NCBI GenBank assembly: GCA_913046825.1
Contig: CAJWTF010000044.1
Span: forward strand, 1-24,608
Source of the DNA: an uncultured Rickettsiales bacterium
Lineage (GTDB): Bacteria; Pseudomonadota; Alphaproteobacteria; UBA8366
DNA length: 24,608 bases
Direction: 5' to 3'
Below the pieces are notes generated by a model. It was not told where the DNA came from and made no database searches. It was given only the letters and a program-made list of their open reading frames with translations. Of this stretch, positions 1 to 10,525 are shown one piece after another. The translations under genes and the position numbers were made by a program. The stretch's first letter is position 1. Every line of letters starts with the position of its first letter.

Positions 1-453
1 GAATTAATCCCCCGTGTCGTCGAGAGCTTCCAGACCCAAGGCGTCGATCTAGCGTACCTGATACCATTATGACCCGTGTGCCACCAGACCGTGGGTCTGA
101 TCGCACGCCATCTCGAAGCCATTGGTATCCCGACCCTCTGTATGGGCTCCGCCCTCGACATCATGGAAGCCGCGAACCCGCCTCGCGCAGTCTTCACCGA
201 CTACCCACTGGGTCACACCACGGGTATGCCCGGAGATCCAAAAGATCAGTACGAGATCACCCGTATCGGCCTTGAAGCGTTCAAGAGCATCCAGCAGCCA
301 GGCACTATACTTAAGCTAGATCGCGAATGGACGCTCGATTCGAATTGGAAGGACGATACACTTGACGGCACGAAAGGCGACGAGCGGTCCCCCCGCGACG
401 AGACACCGCGCTATCAGCTGGAAGAAGACCGGATCGCCGCCGAAGGAGCTTAG
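1..453 (+). CDS. GrdB-like selenoprotein (3' part, selenocysteine at TGA 70-72)
   Basis: The frame open from base 1 runs to the TAG at 451-453 with one interruption, the TGA at 70-72. Translation flows naturally across it: ...AYLIPL-U-PVCHQTVGLIAR..., giving a U-x-x-C redox motif. The motif and the following text (IARHLEAIGIPT, then PPRAVFTDYPLGHT) match the short aerobic relatives of the glycine/betaine/sarcosine reductase selenoprotein B (GrdB/PrdB) family as I remember them, in which U-P-x-C is the conserved centre. Their reaction is not established; a thiol/selenol redox role is an inference. A hairpin fitting the bacterial SECIS pattern follows the TGA (separate entry). The start codon lies upstream of the window. 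A gene caller treating TGA as stop would give a truncated product from the GTG at 76. The C-terminal tail after about codon 105 is charged and looks poorly conserved. The main alternative is a nonsense mutation in a Cys homologue. Confidence 0.85.
75..107 (+). promoter_or_regulatory. Bacterial SECIS-like hairpin downstream of the UGA
   Basis: The lower stem pairs 75-80 (cgtgtg) with 102-107 (cgcacg), with one G-U pair. An internal loop follows (81-84 and 100-101). The upper stem pairs 85-90 (cagacc) with 94-99 (ggtctg) perfectly, closing a GTG triloop at 91-93. The apical loop begins 18 nt after the TGA and starts with G. This fits the known bacterial SECIS pattern of an apical loop about 16-37 nt after UGA with a G in its first two bases. 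It would recruit SelB with Sec-tRNA. SelB and tRNA-Sec are not in the window. Confidence 0.75.
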
Positions 454-6603: not shown

Positions 6604-7352
6604 ATGGACCTTGGACTCAAAGGCAAATTAGCTTTGGTCACGGGCGCCAGCGAAGGCGTCGCGGAAGCCCTCGCCCGGGAAGGCGCTCAGGTCGCGATTG
6701 CGCCCGTACGAAATCCAAGCTGGAAGCCGTGGCTGCGAACAGTTTATCCGAGACCGGCAGCAACGTCTTTGCCATTCCAGCGGGCATGCGATCCCTTGAA
6801 GGGTCCGAAAGTTTCGTGGAAGCCGCGGCCGAGCGGCTCGGTGGGGTCGATATTCTGATCAATAATGCAGGGGTCTCGGCCTTCGGCGCATTCATAGACC
6901 TGCCCGACGATGCCTTTGTCGACGCGATCAACGGCAAACTCCTCGGATACATCCGCTGTGCCCGGGCAGCCATTCCGCATATGCAGAAACGCGTCGGTGG
7001 GAATATCCTGAACATTATCGGCGCTACTCAGCAGGCGGTGCCTTTGCACACCCCCGGCAGCAACTGTAACGCCGCGGTTCGGATGTTCAGCAAGGAATTG
7101 TCGATGGAACTCGGCCCGATGAACATCCAAGTGAACAGCCTGGGCCCCGGCTACATTCAAACCGCGAGAGCAGACCAATTGCTCAAGGCGAACGCAGAGA
7201 CCCAAGGTATCTCCGAGGCGGAAGTTTTAAGCGGCCTCGTCAGCACTGTCGCCGATATTGCCGACGCTGTCTGCTTCCTGGTTAGCGAGCGTGCCACATA
7301 TGTAAACGGCTCCGCCCTCGTCATCGACGGCAGCGAGTCACTGGTGATCTAG
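6604..7352 (+). pseudogene. Short-chain dehydrogenase/reductase, frameshifted
   Basis: Two overlapping frames together make one SDR. The first (from ATG 6604, GGAG upstream) reads LKGKLALVTGASEGVAEALAREGAQVAI. The second continues CARTKSKLEAVAANS up to the stop at 7350-7352. They join at about 6697-6700, where one base (probably a T, ATTTGC reduced to ATTGC) is missing. The glycine motif is also short: TGASEG is followed directly by VAEAL, where the family has about four more residues supplying GxG of TGxxxGxG. Downstream, INNAG is intact, but the usual YxxxK is GxxxN (HTPGSNCNAAV), as in an SDR side-branch. The result is either a decaying gene or a read error plus a real deletion. It is the last gene of the plus-strand run. 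Confidence 0.8.
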
Positions 7353-8908: not shown

Positions 8909-9631
8909 ATGACGCAAAGAACGAACGAGTTTGGGCAACCGGTCGGCGATGCCTTGCCCGATTGGCAACCAGTTTTACACCCTCCCCGGACACCGATGGA
9001 AGGGCGTTATTGCCGGACCGAGGCCTTCGATGTCGATCGGCATGGAAGTGACTTGTATGAGGCGTACGCAGCCAACGAAGACGGCAGCATGTGGACGTAT
9101 ATGCCAAGCGGCCCTTTCGCGGACGAGGCGGCATTCCTTGCGTGGATGGGGCCGGCTTGCGAGAGCGAGGACCCGTTATTCTACACGCTGATCGACACCA
9201 CGAGCGGTAAAGCCGTCGGCCAGGCCGCATATCTTCGAATTACGCCTGCGCACGGTGTTATCGAAGTCGGCAATATCGCGTTCTCCCCGCGCCTTCAACG
9301 CACGCCCATTGCTACCGAGGCCATGTTTTTGATGATGAAGCGAGTATTCAATGAGCTTGGATACCGCCGCTACGAATGGAAATGCGATTCCTGTAACGCC
9401 CCCTCGCGCCGCGCCGCCGCGCGCTTTGGATTCACATATGATGGGCTGTTCCCGCAGGCCATCGTCTACAAGGGCCGCAATCGGGATAGCACCTGGTTTT
9501 CGATCATCGACAAGGATTGGCCTGCCACGGAACGCGCCTATCAGACGTGGCTCGAGCCAGATAATTTCGACGTGGACGGACAGCAGAAACAGAAACTATC
9601 GGACTTGATCGCCGCCAATCGAACAGATTAA
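8909..9631 (+). CDS. GNAT family N-acetyltransferase, RimJ/RimL-like
   Basis: The product has 240 residues. The acetyl-CoA fold is seen in the order expected: RTEAFDVDRHGSDLYEAYA, FYTLIDTTSGKAVGQAAYLRI, VIEVGNIAFSP, then LQRTPIATEAMFLMMKRVFNELGYRRYEWKC, and CNAPSRRAAARFGFTYDG. The last segment is typical of the RimJ/RimL-type branch acting on proteins or small amines. The substrate is unknown and its link to the surrounding catabolic genes is not obvious. ATG 8909 is chosen because homology begins shortly after; the preceding site (AAGAAAG) is weak. It ends only 3 bases before the convergent lactonase gene, leaving no room for a terminator between them. Confidence 0.88.
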   Translation: MTQRTNEFGQPVGDALPDWQPVLHPPRTPMEGRYCRTEAFDVDRHGSDLYEAYAANEDGSMWTYMPSGPFADEAAFLAWMGPACESEDPLFYTLIDTTSGKAVGQAAYLRITPAHGVIEVGNIAFSPRLQRTPIATEAMFLMMKRVFNELGYRRYEWKCDSCNAPSRRAAARFGFTYDGLFPQAIVYKGRNRDSTWFSIIDKDWPATERAYQTWLEPDNFDVDGQQKQKLSDLIAANRTD

Positions 9632-9634
9632 CGC

Positions 9635-10525
9635 CTATCGGACCAAATACCAGGGATGCGGCATTCCGGGCGTTTTGACCCGCAGAGTGTAGACCGATGT
9701 CACTGCACACACGAACAGCGTACAGAGATCGTCGCCGCCGAAAGTGAAGTTTACCGCCATTTCAGGCAGGCGAATGATCCCGACATGCGTCCCATCAGCC
9801 TTGTTCACCCAAATGCCGCCGGGGCCGGTACAATAGACCCGCCCCTTTTGGTCGACCTTCATACCGTCGGGAATACCGGGCTCCTTGCCGCTCTGATCAG
9901 CGAATATACGCCGGTCCAGCAGATTGCCTTCCGCATCGATACCGATGGCATGAATGTATTGCGTCATGCGCGTATTGGCGATGTAGAGGGTGCGCTCATC
10001 CGGAGACAACGCGAGGCCGTTCGGATATTCAACACTCACTAAGGCGGAGATACTCTCTCCGTCAGGCGATATTCGATAAACCCGCGCTCCCGAATAGACA
10101 CCGTCTTCCCCACCAGGCCGCGGCTGCTCGCGCTTCTCGAATGGGATGCGCCCTGACGGATCGGTGAAATAGAGACTGCCGTCGGTATGACAGATGATGT
10201 CGTTGGGTCGATTGAAACGCCCCCCTTCAAACCGGTCGACCAGGGTCATGATGGAGCCGTCATGCTCTTCGCGGGTAATTCTTTTCCCTTCGCCTTCGCA
10301 TTGCACCAACCGGCCCTCGAGGTCGAAGGTCATGCCGTTACCGCCCTCGGTATTGCGAAGCATCTCGGGTTCCTCACCGAGCTTCATGCGGTACATGGTT
10401 CCAGGACGAATATCGTTGAAGTACCAGATATCATCCGGATGCCAGACCGGTCCTTCCGTGAAGACAAATCCGGTCGCCTCACGCACAGGATCAGAGGTCT
10501 CGAGAATTTCCGGTAATTCGTTCAT
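9635..10525 (-). CDS. SMP-30/gluconolactonase/LRE family protein
   Basis: The product has 296 residues forming a six-bladed beta-propeller. Metal-site residues expected for the family are in place: E24 (FTEGPVWH), N108 (NRPND), N169 (YPNGLALSPDERTLYIANT) and D220 (IPDGMKVD). These enzymes hydrolyse lactones using a divalent metal. ATG 10525 is chosen over the longer ATG 10552 because AGGA lies 8 nt upstream and the shorter start avoids overlapping the preceding amidohydrolase gene, which ends at 10531. The two are evidently co-transcribed and may open a lactone in one pathway. The exact lactone is unknown. Confidence 0.92.
   Translation of the reverse strand: MNELPEILETSDPVREATGFVFTEGPVWHPDDIWYFNDIRPGTMYRMKLGEEPEMLRNTEGGNGMTFDLEGRLVQCEGEGKRITREEHDGSIMTLVDRFEGGRFNRPNDIICHTDGSLYFTDPSGRIPFEKREQPRPGGEDGVYSGARVYRISPDGESISALVSVEYPNGLALSPDERTLYIANTRMTQYIHAIGIDAEGNLLDRRIFADQSGKEPGIPDGMKVDQKGRVYCTGPGGIWVNKADGTHVGIIRLPEMAVNFTFGGDDLCTLFVCAVTSVYTLRVKTPGMPHPWYLVR

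Follow-up and report, generated by a model that had tools for sequence, protein, structure and literature searches.

The gene at the start of the window, by which we mean the whole 24,608-nucleotide stretch analysed here (contig CAJWTF010000044.1 of an uncultured Rickettsiales bacterium), was identified as the 3' part of a PrdB/GrdB-like gene whose UGA codon at 70-72 is, judging from its homologues, very probably read as selenocysteine (Sec), making it a selenoprotein gene. For the encoded selenoprotein, a redox role within the PrdB/GrdB superfamily is likely, with high confidence. UGA is usually a stop codon and Sec a rare amino acid, and automatic gene finding splits the genes that contain it.

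In frame 1, the window has no stop codon between position 1 and the TAG at 451-453 other than the TGA at 70-72. The codons at 70-81 (TGA CCC GTG TGC) give U-P-V-C, and the translation around this site reads ...YLIPL-U-PVCHQTVGLIARHLEAIGIPTLC..., bearing out the initial annotation, which had described an in-frame TGA with a Cys three residues on and homology on both flanks. The 5' half of the gene lies upstream of the window, which covers the last 150 of about 290 residues. The following features were assigned.

1..453, + strand: 3' part of a PrdB/GrdB-like selenoprotein gene, 150 codons followed by TAG; 79% identity over 149 amino acids to the closest full-length orthologue (L001)
70..72, + strand: UGA codon, the U of U-P-V-C, very probably read as Sec; TGA in 23/30 and a Cys codon in 7/30 relatives
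76..108, + strand: putative bacterial SECIS-type hairpin; lower stem 76-81/103-108, upper stem 85-90/94-99
79..81, + strand: Cys codon in UxxC, probably the resolving Cys; alignment A1 (46 rows) shows no variation at this column, C173
91..93, + strand: apical loop GTG, G first; 18 nt between UGA and loop
76..453, + strand: 125-amino acid ORF, starting at GTG 76, that standard gene calling reports instead of the gene

The Sec/Cys column among homologues

The complete gene was found in locus L001 (MAG RS378, contig PBOZ01000056.1), in a frame running from 9563 to 10459 with a TGA in the same column and a likely start at GTG 9587, preceded by AAGGA. A second close relative, L002, starts downstream of the Sec codon and is uninformative on this column. 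Homologues were sought in 190 genomes from the class to which the genome of L001 belongs and were found in 21; the column counts given here refer to 30 homologous stretches read as loci, of 43 listed. At the Sec column these carried either UGA or a Cys codon and never TAA or TAG, and the U/C column was conserved, so that neither an ordinary stop in the homologues nor an unconserved column, both named beforehand as grounds for rejecting the selenoprotein, was seen. None of the 30 loci contained a second in-frame TGA within the matched region, and one (L031) had a TAG elsewhere in it. The invariant columns of alignment A1, in which Sec is written as C, include C170, P171, C173, H174 and Q175. 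Both flanks of the column were under purifying selection. Of 16 comparisons, Ka/Ks could be computed in 11, where it was 0.07-0.34; synonymous sites were saturated in the remaining five, including both sides of the window against L001. On the C-terminal side of that last pair, the UGA is shared at 81% amino acid identity despite a pS of 0.82. The gene thus combines an in-frame UGA aligned with the Cys of homologues and homology on both flanks, the pattern by which selenoproteins are recognised.

Protein databases reflect the splitting of this gene. The three closest database proteins are 125 amino acids each, the length of the ORF at 76-453, as expected from the earlier claim that gene callers begin at GTG 76. 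With the part encoded in the window as query, the best 120 of 222 matches all begin after the Sec column and represent C-terminal halves. With the full protein, the best 120 of 338 matches were examined: 59 stop just short of the column (N-terminal halves) and 61 span it, 60 with Cys and one with Arg. The Arg-containing protein (P0156) is the only one of its kind among the 61 column-spanning proteins listed. A further variant is found in a subgroup (L043, L045 and L065) with the motif U-P-L-D, which retains Sec and the hairpin and has Asp in the position of the resolving Cys.

A phylogenetic tree was based on 58 Cys-containing and 17 Sec-containing rows. The window sequence is placed beside L019 and L001 (support 100/98), in a group with Sec in 12/12 rows (support 82/92) that neighbours groups with Cys, many of whose members are more than 50% identical to the L001 protein. 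At least three changes between Sec and Cys are required, and Sec rows and Cys rows are each strongly clustered on the tree. Sec and Cys orthologues at more than 50% identity offer matched pairs in which the benefit of selenium could be measured.

Elsewhere in the window, no further U..C or C..U candidate was flanked on both sides by more than 60 open codons. The stop codons of its 23 larger ORFs are TAA in 11, TAG in 10 and TGA in two cases, TGA stops thus being scarce. At 6604-7352, a gene resembling short-chain dehydrogenases, a family named by eye, switches frame (an 84-amino acid ORF followed by one of 207 amino acids), a frameshift either of the organism or of the assembly.

The hairpin and the selenocysteine machinery

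A marine selenoprotein survey describes a bacterial SECIS element as a hairpin close behind the UGA with a small apical loop containing G (PMC1088965). The hairpin in the window lies close behind the UGA and has such a loop. The initial annotation was right about a two-part hairpin with a G-first loop 18 nt downstream, and its coordinates (75-107) were off by one base. The folding energy was lower than that of codon-synonymous shuffles of the same peptide (z = -2.7, p = 0.010); the pair 84/100, which would extend the upper stem, is a C-A mismatch. No Rfam family matched the hairpin at gathering score in a search of the entire window, and a relaxed search of bases 40-180, accepting E values of 10 or below, gave three matches at the level of chance and no SECIS family among them. 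Further support for the element came from the stem and loop in UGA-containing relatives.

For this comparison, 50 UGA sites (51 by motif, one containing an N being dropped) were set against 10 Cys sites. Sites were chosen by motif search and repeats were removed, leaving copies with other motifs, such as the UGA copy L056, uncounted; the synonymous-codon null drew its codon pool from 31 gene stretches of the PrdB/GrdB-like family rather than from whole genomes. On average 6.68 of the eight upper pairs were formed in UGA copies vs 4.87 in the null, and 4.40 in Cys copies vs 4.21, that is, at null level. Numbering from the base following the TGA, pair 15-25 was GC in 32, CG in 10, AT in four, GT in two and TG in two of the 50 UGA copies; pair 12-28 was CG in 24, TA in 14 and GC in six, with a CA mismatch in two, and pair 16-24 was AT in 36, GC in 11 and TA in one. 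The Val codon of the loop was GTG in 42/50 UGA copies vs 1/10 Cys copies. Taken singly, 12/50 UGA hairpins and 0/10 Cys counterparts had a folding-energy p < 0.05. Other parts of the structure were less informative. The outer lower-stem pairs 6-34 and 7-33 were formed in 18/50 and 22/50 UGA copies and are not generally kept. Pairs 8-32, 9-31 and 14-26 were intact in 10/10 Cys copies as well, so they provide no evidence for a SECIS. The innermost upper pair, 18-22 (90/94 in the window), was formed in 13/50 UGA copies, and because it is unformed in most of them the loop of most UGA relatives has five bases with G second. The hairpin sequences are related, so these counts are not independent events. 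Judging from the aligned copies, paired base changes and the choice among synonymous codons maintain the hairpin to a greater extent in UGA copies than in Cys copies.

The Rfam cut-off for tRNA-Sec was misleading by itself: it was passed by 109 of the 190 genomes, and the Cys-only G111 (49.4 bits) and G216 (49.8 bits) also scored above it. A clear tRNA-Sec was therefore defined as one of 68 bits or more, a threshold set after the scores had been seen, at a gap between 68.2 and 54.9 bits. In the class sample, 24 genomes had a clear tRNA-Sec and 23 of those had selB over its curated cut-off, the two sets being the same except for G001. A clear tRNA-Sec was present in 15/16 genomes with UGA copies vs 9/174 others and 0/5 Cys-only genomes (Fisher p = 3e-15 and 3e-4, respectively, kinship ignored). 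In one genome with a UGA copy (G013), selD was the only component found and a clear tRNA-Sec, selB and selA were not; the Cys-only G128 and G216 had no selA and no selD over the cut-off.

A sample of 43 genomes from the order gave a similar picture. Homologues were present in 25, 22 with UGA copies and three without, and selB scored over the cut-off in 18/22 UGA genomes vs 0/21 others (p = 1.2e-8, kinship ignored); selB was partial in G002, G206 and G207. The four UGA genomes of the order without selB over the cut-off were G001, G212, G213 and G229. Two of these had a tRNA-Sec (G001, 79.8 bits; G212, 67.8 bits), selA was over the cut-off in G212, G213 and G229, and G213 had selD too. In the closest relatives of the window, G001 and G002, a tRNA-Sec with anticodon TCA was confirmed by ARAGORN. 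G002 also contained selA, selD and a partial selB, which runs off the end of its contig. In G001, which carries the closest full-length orthologue, selA was not found and neither selB nor selD scored above the cut-off; the assembly of G001 may be incomplete. The proposed search for sel genes, run in relatives, thus recovered the machinery in G002, and a lack of selB or tRNA-Sec, which would have spoken against a selenoprotein, was not what most genomes with UGA copies displayed. In G036 (C4), G055 (C48), G104 (C5) and G069 (C80), a TGA-bearing longer GrdB-like paralogue has tRNA-Sec and selB nearby, at distances of about 0.6-5.6 kb.

Two other readings of the UGA were weighed against these data. 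Gene callers treat the codon as a true stop, which would mean either that two ORFs lie next to each other or that a nonsense change has left a pseudogene; the chance of this is very small given a TGA in the same column in 23 of 30 relatives with Cys in the other seven, purifying selection on both flanks, a covarying hairpin and the association with tRNA-Sec and selB. The open frame, and nothing more, would equally suit insertion of a different amino acid such as Trp at the UGA, through suppression or a changed code. This we regard as negligible, homologues having Cys rather than Trp at the column, UGA copies being accompanied by tRNA-Sec and 2/23 window ORFs examined ending in TGA. Decoding as Sec through SelB and the hairpin at 76-108 is strongly supported by the comparative data: SelB carrying Sec-tRNA would bind the hairpin, and UGA 70-72 would be read as Sec.

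Family assignment and gene neighbourhood

The best NCBIfam match of the L001 protein was PrdB (TIGR04483), with 126.7 bits over residues 38-253, below the curated cut-off of 300; the window fragment scored 47.6 bits against the same model and cut-off. GrdB-type models matched 101-150 residues, the Sec region among them, at 43.1 bits or less, all under curated cut-offs (for GrdB TIGR01917, 31.1 bits against 602.2). The L001 protein passed PF07355 (24.2 bits, gathering score 22) through residues 101-165, a match that ends before the Sec, and the window fragment did not match this family. The label 'GrdB-like' given initially hence names the right superfamily, but PrdB outscores every GrdB-type model.

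PrdA above the cut-off was found in 0/43 genomes of the order, with one weak fragment of 38.6 bits (G206), and a Pfam scan of 20 window proteins revealed no PrdA-type domain. GrdA was not found in 42/43 genomes and was present in G206, where a GrdA with TGA, a GrdB-like match and the weak PrdA match lie side by side (G206:C421:22344-24740). This is the sole glycine-reductase-like cluster in the 43 genomes; it appears to be a separate cluster and is possibly foreign sequence in that assembly. The PrdA and GrdA searches gave no positive in 14 control genomes, so the G206 cluster is the only positive control and the sensitivity of the searches rests on it. Because PrdA above the cut-off is absent from 43/43 genomes and GrdA from 42/43, the protein is probably neither a D-proline reductase nor a glycine reductase.

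Compared with clostridial D-proline reductase PrdB (TIGR04483), the protein shares the UxxC in the same place and homology over residues 38-253, and differs in its sub-threshold score and in belonging to an order without PrdA above the cut-off. GrdB, GrdF and GrdH, the protein B of glycine, sarcosine and betaine reductase, share the 101-150 residues including the Sec region and provide, in their reductive cleavage chemistry, a model for the window protein; they differ in length (431-435 residues by profile vs about 290) and in that GrdA occurs in 1/43 genomes.

The neighbourhood as a guide to function was rejected, as nothing was common to all loci. A family III CoA-transferase gene, its Pfam name taken from homologues in the window, flanks 13/58 loci in 12 genomes, co-directionally in 12/13 and downstream in 11/13. 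About 2-3 such flanks would be expected from 3 non-adjacent genes per 222 kb in 13 wider neighbourhoods, a rough figure that ignores kinship. Most of the 13 loci lie outside the subgroup of the window; L054 lies inside it. In the window, L001 and L002, the selenoprotein gene is followed by a convergent VOC gene and an acyl-CoA dehydrogenase gene, and at a threshold of 38% identity the neighbours in the window (VOC, acyl-CoA dehydrogenase, aldo-keto reductase, HAD hydrolase and amidohydrolase) were seen again in L001 and/or L002 and nowhere else. Oxygenase-type genes and genes of CoA-linked catabolism abound in the window, including luciferase-like monooxygenases, 2OG/PhyH dioxygenases, TauD and CoA-transferases. 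The 'aerobic bacteria' of the initial annotation agree with the oxygenase-type genes, which are the sole basis for that inference. A role in organic-acid catabolism through CoA thioesters is probable. In L084, L086 and L090 (G205, G206 and G207), the orthologue adjoins a hutH-like gene, with a hutU-like gene in 2/3 (assigned by eye).

Proposed chemistry and the marine 'PrdB' selenoproteins

An AlphaFold2 model (pLDDT 91.7, pTM 0.91) comprised an alpha/beta domain with residue 170, the Sec, between a strand (163-167) and a helix (171-186). The Sec is thus predicted to lie just before a helix N-terminus and three residues ahead of a Cys, as in thiol redox enzymes; matches of the model to solved folds were too weak to inform function. 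In GrdB and PrdB, according to a review, Sec is thought to bond to the substrate carbon, from which a thiol then releases it (PMC10298544). A GrdB-family selenoprotein, FarB, has been proposed to cleave C-F bonds in the fluoroacetate reductase of Cloacibacillus porcorum MFA1 together with FarE, an E subunit without the pyruvoyl-forming cysteines (PMC10838667). The FarB/FarE system as described there is a precedent for new substrates, in that a selenoprotein of the GrdB family is proposed to act on another bond; unlike the window protein, which is known from its sequence, it is of GrdB type, comes from an anaerobe and is encoded in an operon upregulated on its substrate (PMC10838667).

By analogy with the chemistry of GrdB, PrdB and FarB, we tentatively propose that the window protein is a reductase cleaving a carbon-heteroatom bond, a reaction class that we consider plausible while placing it somewhat short of even. 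Its selenolate would attack a small organic substrate and cleave the bond reductively, the adjacent Cys would resolve the intermediate, and a cellular thiol system would recycle the Sec/Cys pair. The protein might work alone or with partners other than PrdA or GrdA. Any single named substrate would be very doubtful.

Two competing views of the selenoprotein differ in what it would act upon. The first, that the protein serves as PrdB in an ordinary D-proline reductase, agrees with its best NCBIfam match and with the name used in the marine surveys of 2005 and 2008 (PMC1088965, PMC2398784), yet is highly unlikely with a score of 126.7 bits where the curated cut-off is 300, PrdA (the pyruvoyl subunit) over its cut-off in none of the 43 genomes of the order, by searches whose controls gave no positives, and no PrdA-type domain among the scanned window proteins. 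With PrdA and GrdA lacking and scores under the cut-off, 'D-proline reductase PrdB', the label that some database sources give to the family, is unsupported as a function. The second view accepts Sec insertion and sees a generic thiol-disulfide or peroxide reductase with a thioredoxin-like UxxC. The position of the motif at a helix N-terminus in the predicted model would suit this, as would a glutathione reductase-like gene flanking L058, L059 and L076 (by eye), but the homology is to substrate-binding B subunits and not to thioredoxins, three copies retain Sec with Asp in place of the resolving Cys, and the many paralogues per genome would better suit a diversity of substrates. We consider a generic reductase rather unlikely.

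Selenoproteins with a UxxC motif named 'PrdB' were reported from the Sargasso Sea in 2005 (42 Sec and one Cys; PMC1088965) and from the GOS survey in 2008, where 235 Sec and 110 Cys forms were listed with pfam07355 (PMC2398784); in both, 'PrdB' ranks among the commonest marine selenoproteins. The window protein resembles these in its UxxC, its marine setting and the predominance of Sec over Cys that the surveys record (PMC1088965, PMC2398784). The surveys named their 'PrdB' by homology, and the match to the group of the window is one of description rather than of sequence. Since its description fits the published UxxC 'PrdB', the window protein is a further member of an already known kind of selenoprotein. 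'Unannotated selenoprotein' accordingly holds for the databases, which split the gene at the column, but not for the family, which fits the one described in 2005 and 2008. What is added here to the marine 'PrdB' picture is the lack of PrdA and GrdA, the number of paralogues and the gene context. In the open-licence literature we found no experimental study of the PrdB-like UxxC family, and neither the missing PrdA/GrdA nor the paralogue number nor the CoA-transferase link was found in print. It is possible, though we advance this with reserve, that the marine 'PrdB' are an expanded set of selenium-dependent reductases, independent of PrdA and GrdA, that cleave carbon-heteroatom bonds in the catabolism of oxygen-using alphaproteobacteria, partly from operons with family III CoA-transferases. 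A family that is among the commonest selenoproteins of two marine surveys is halved in databases and, where it carries a name, is called after an enzyme whose partner subunit the genomes analysed here lack; with the halves rejoined and the name dropped, it becomes testable which bond is reduced and why selenium is used alongside oxygenase-type genes.

Matches in plasmid records numbered 24, all below 60% identity and mostly from Terrisporobacter (8), Enterococcus (6) and Ligilactobacillus (5). The superfamily is unusually expanded in some genomes of the order: G205 has eight PrdB/GrdB-like copies and G225 has seven, with a single in-frame TGA in every copy, and G206 has twelve matching places. 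Longer GrdB-like genes with TGA occur in tandem pairs, about 1.2 kb from start to start, in G224 (C24), G225 (C55), G226 (C14), G230 (C4) and G231 (C3).
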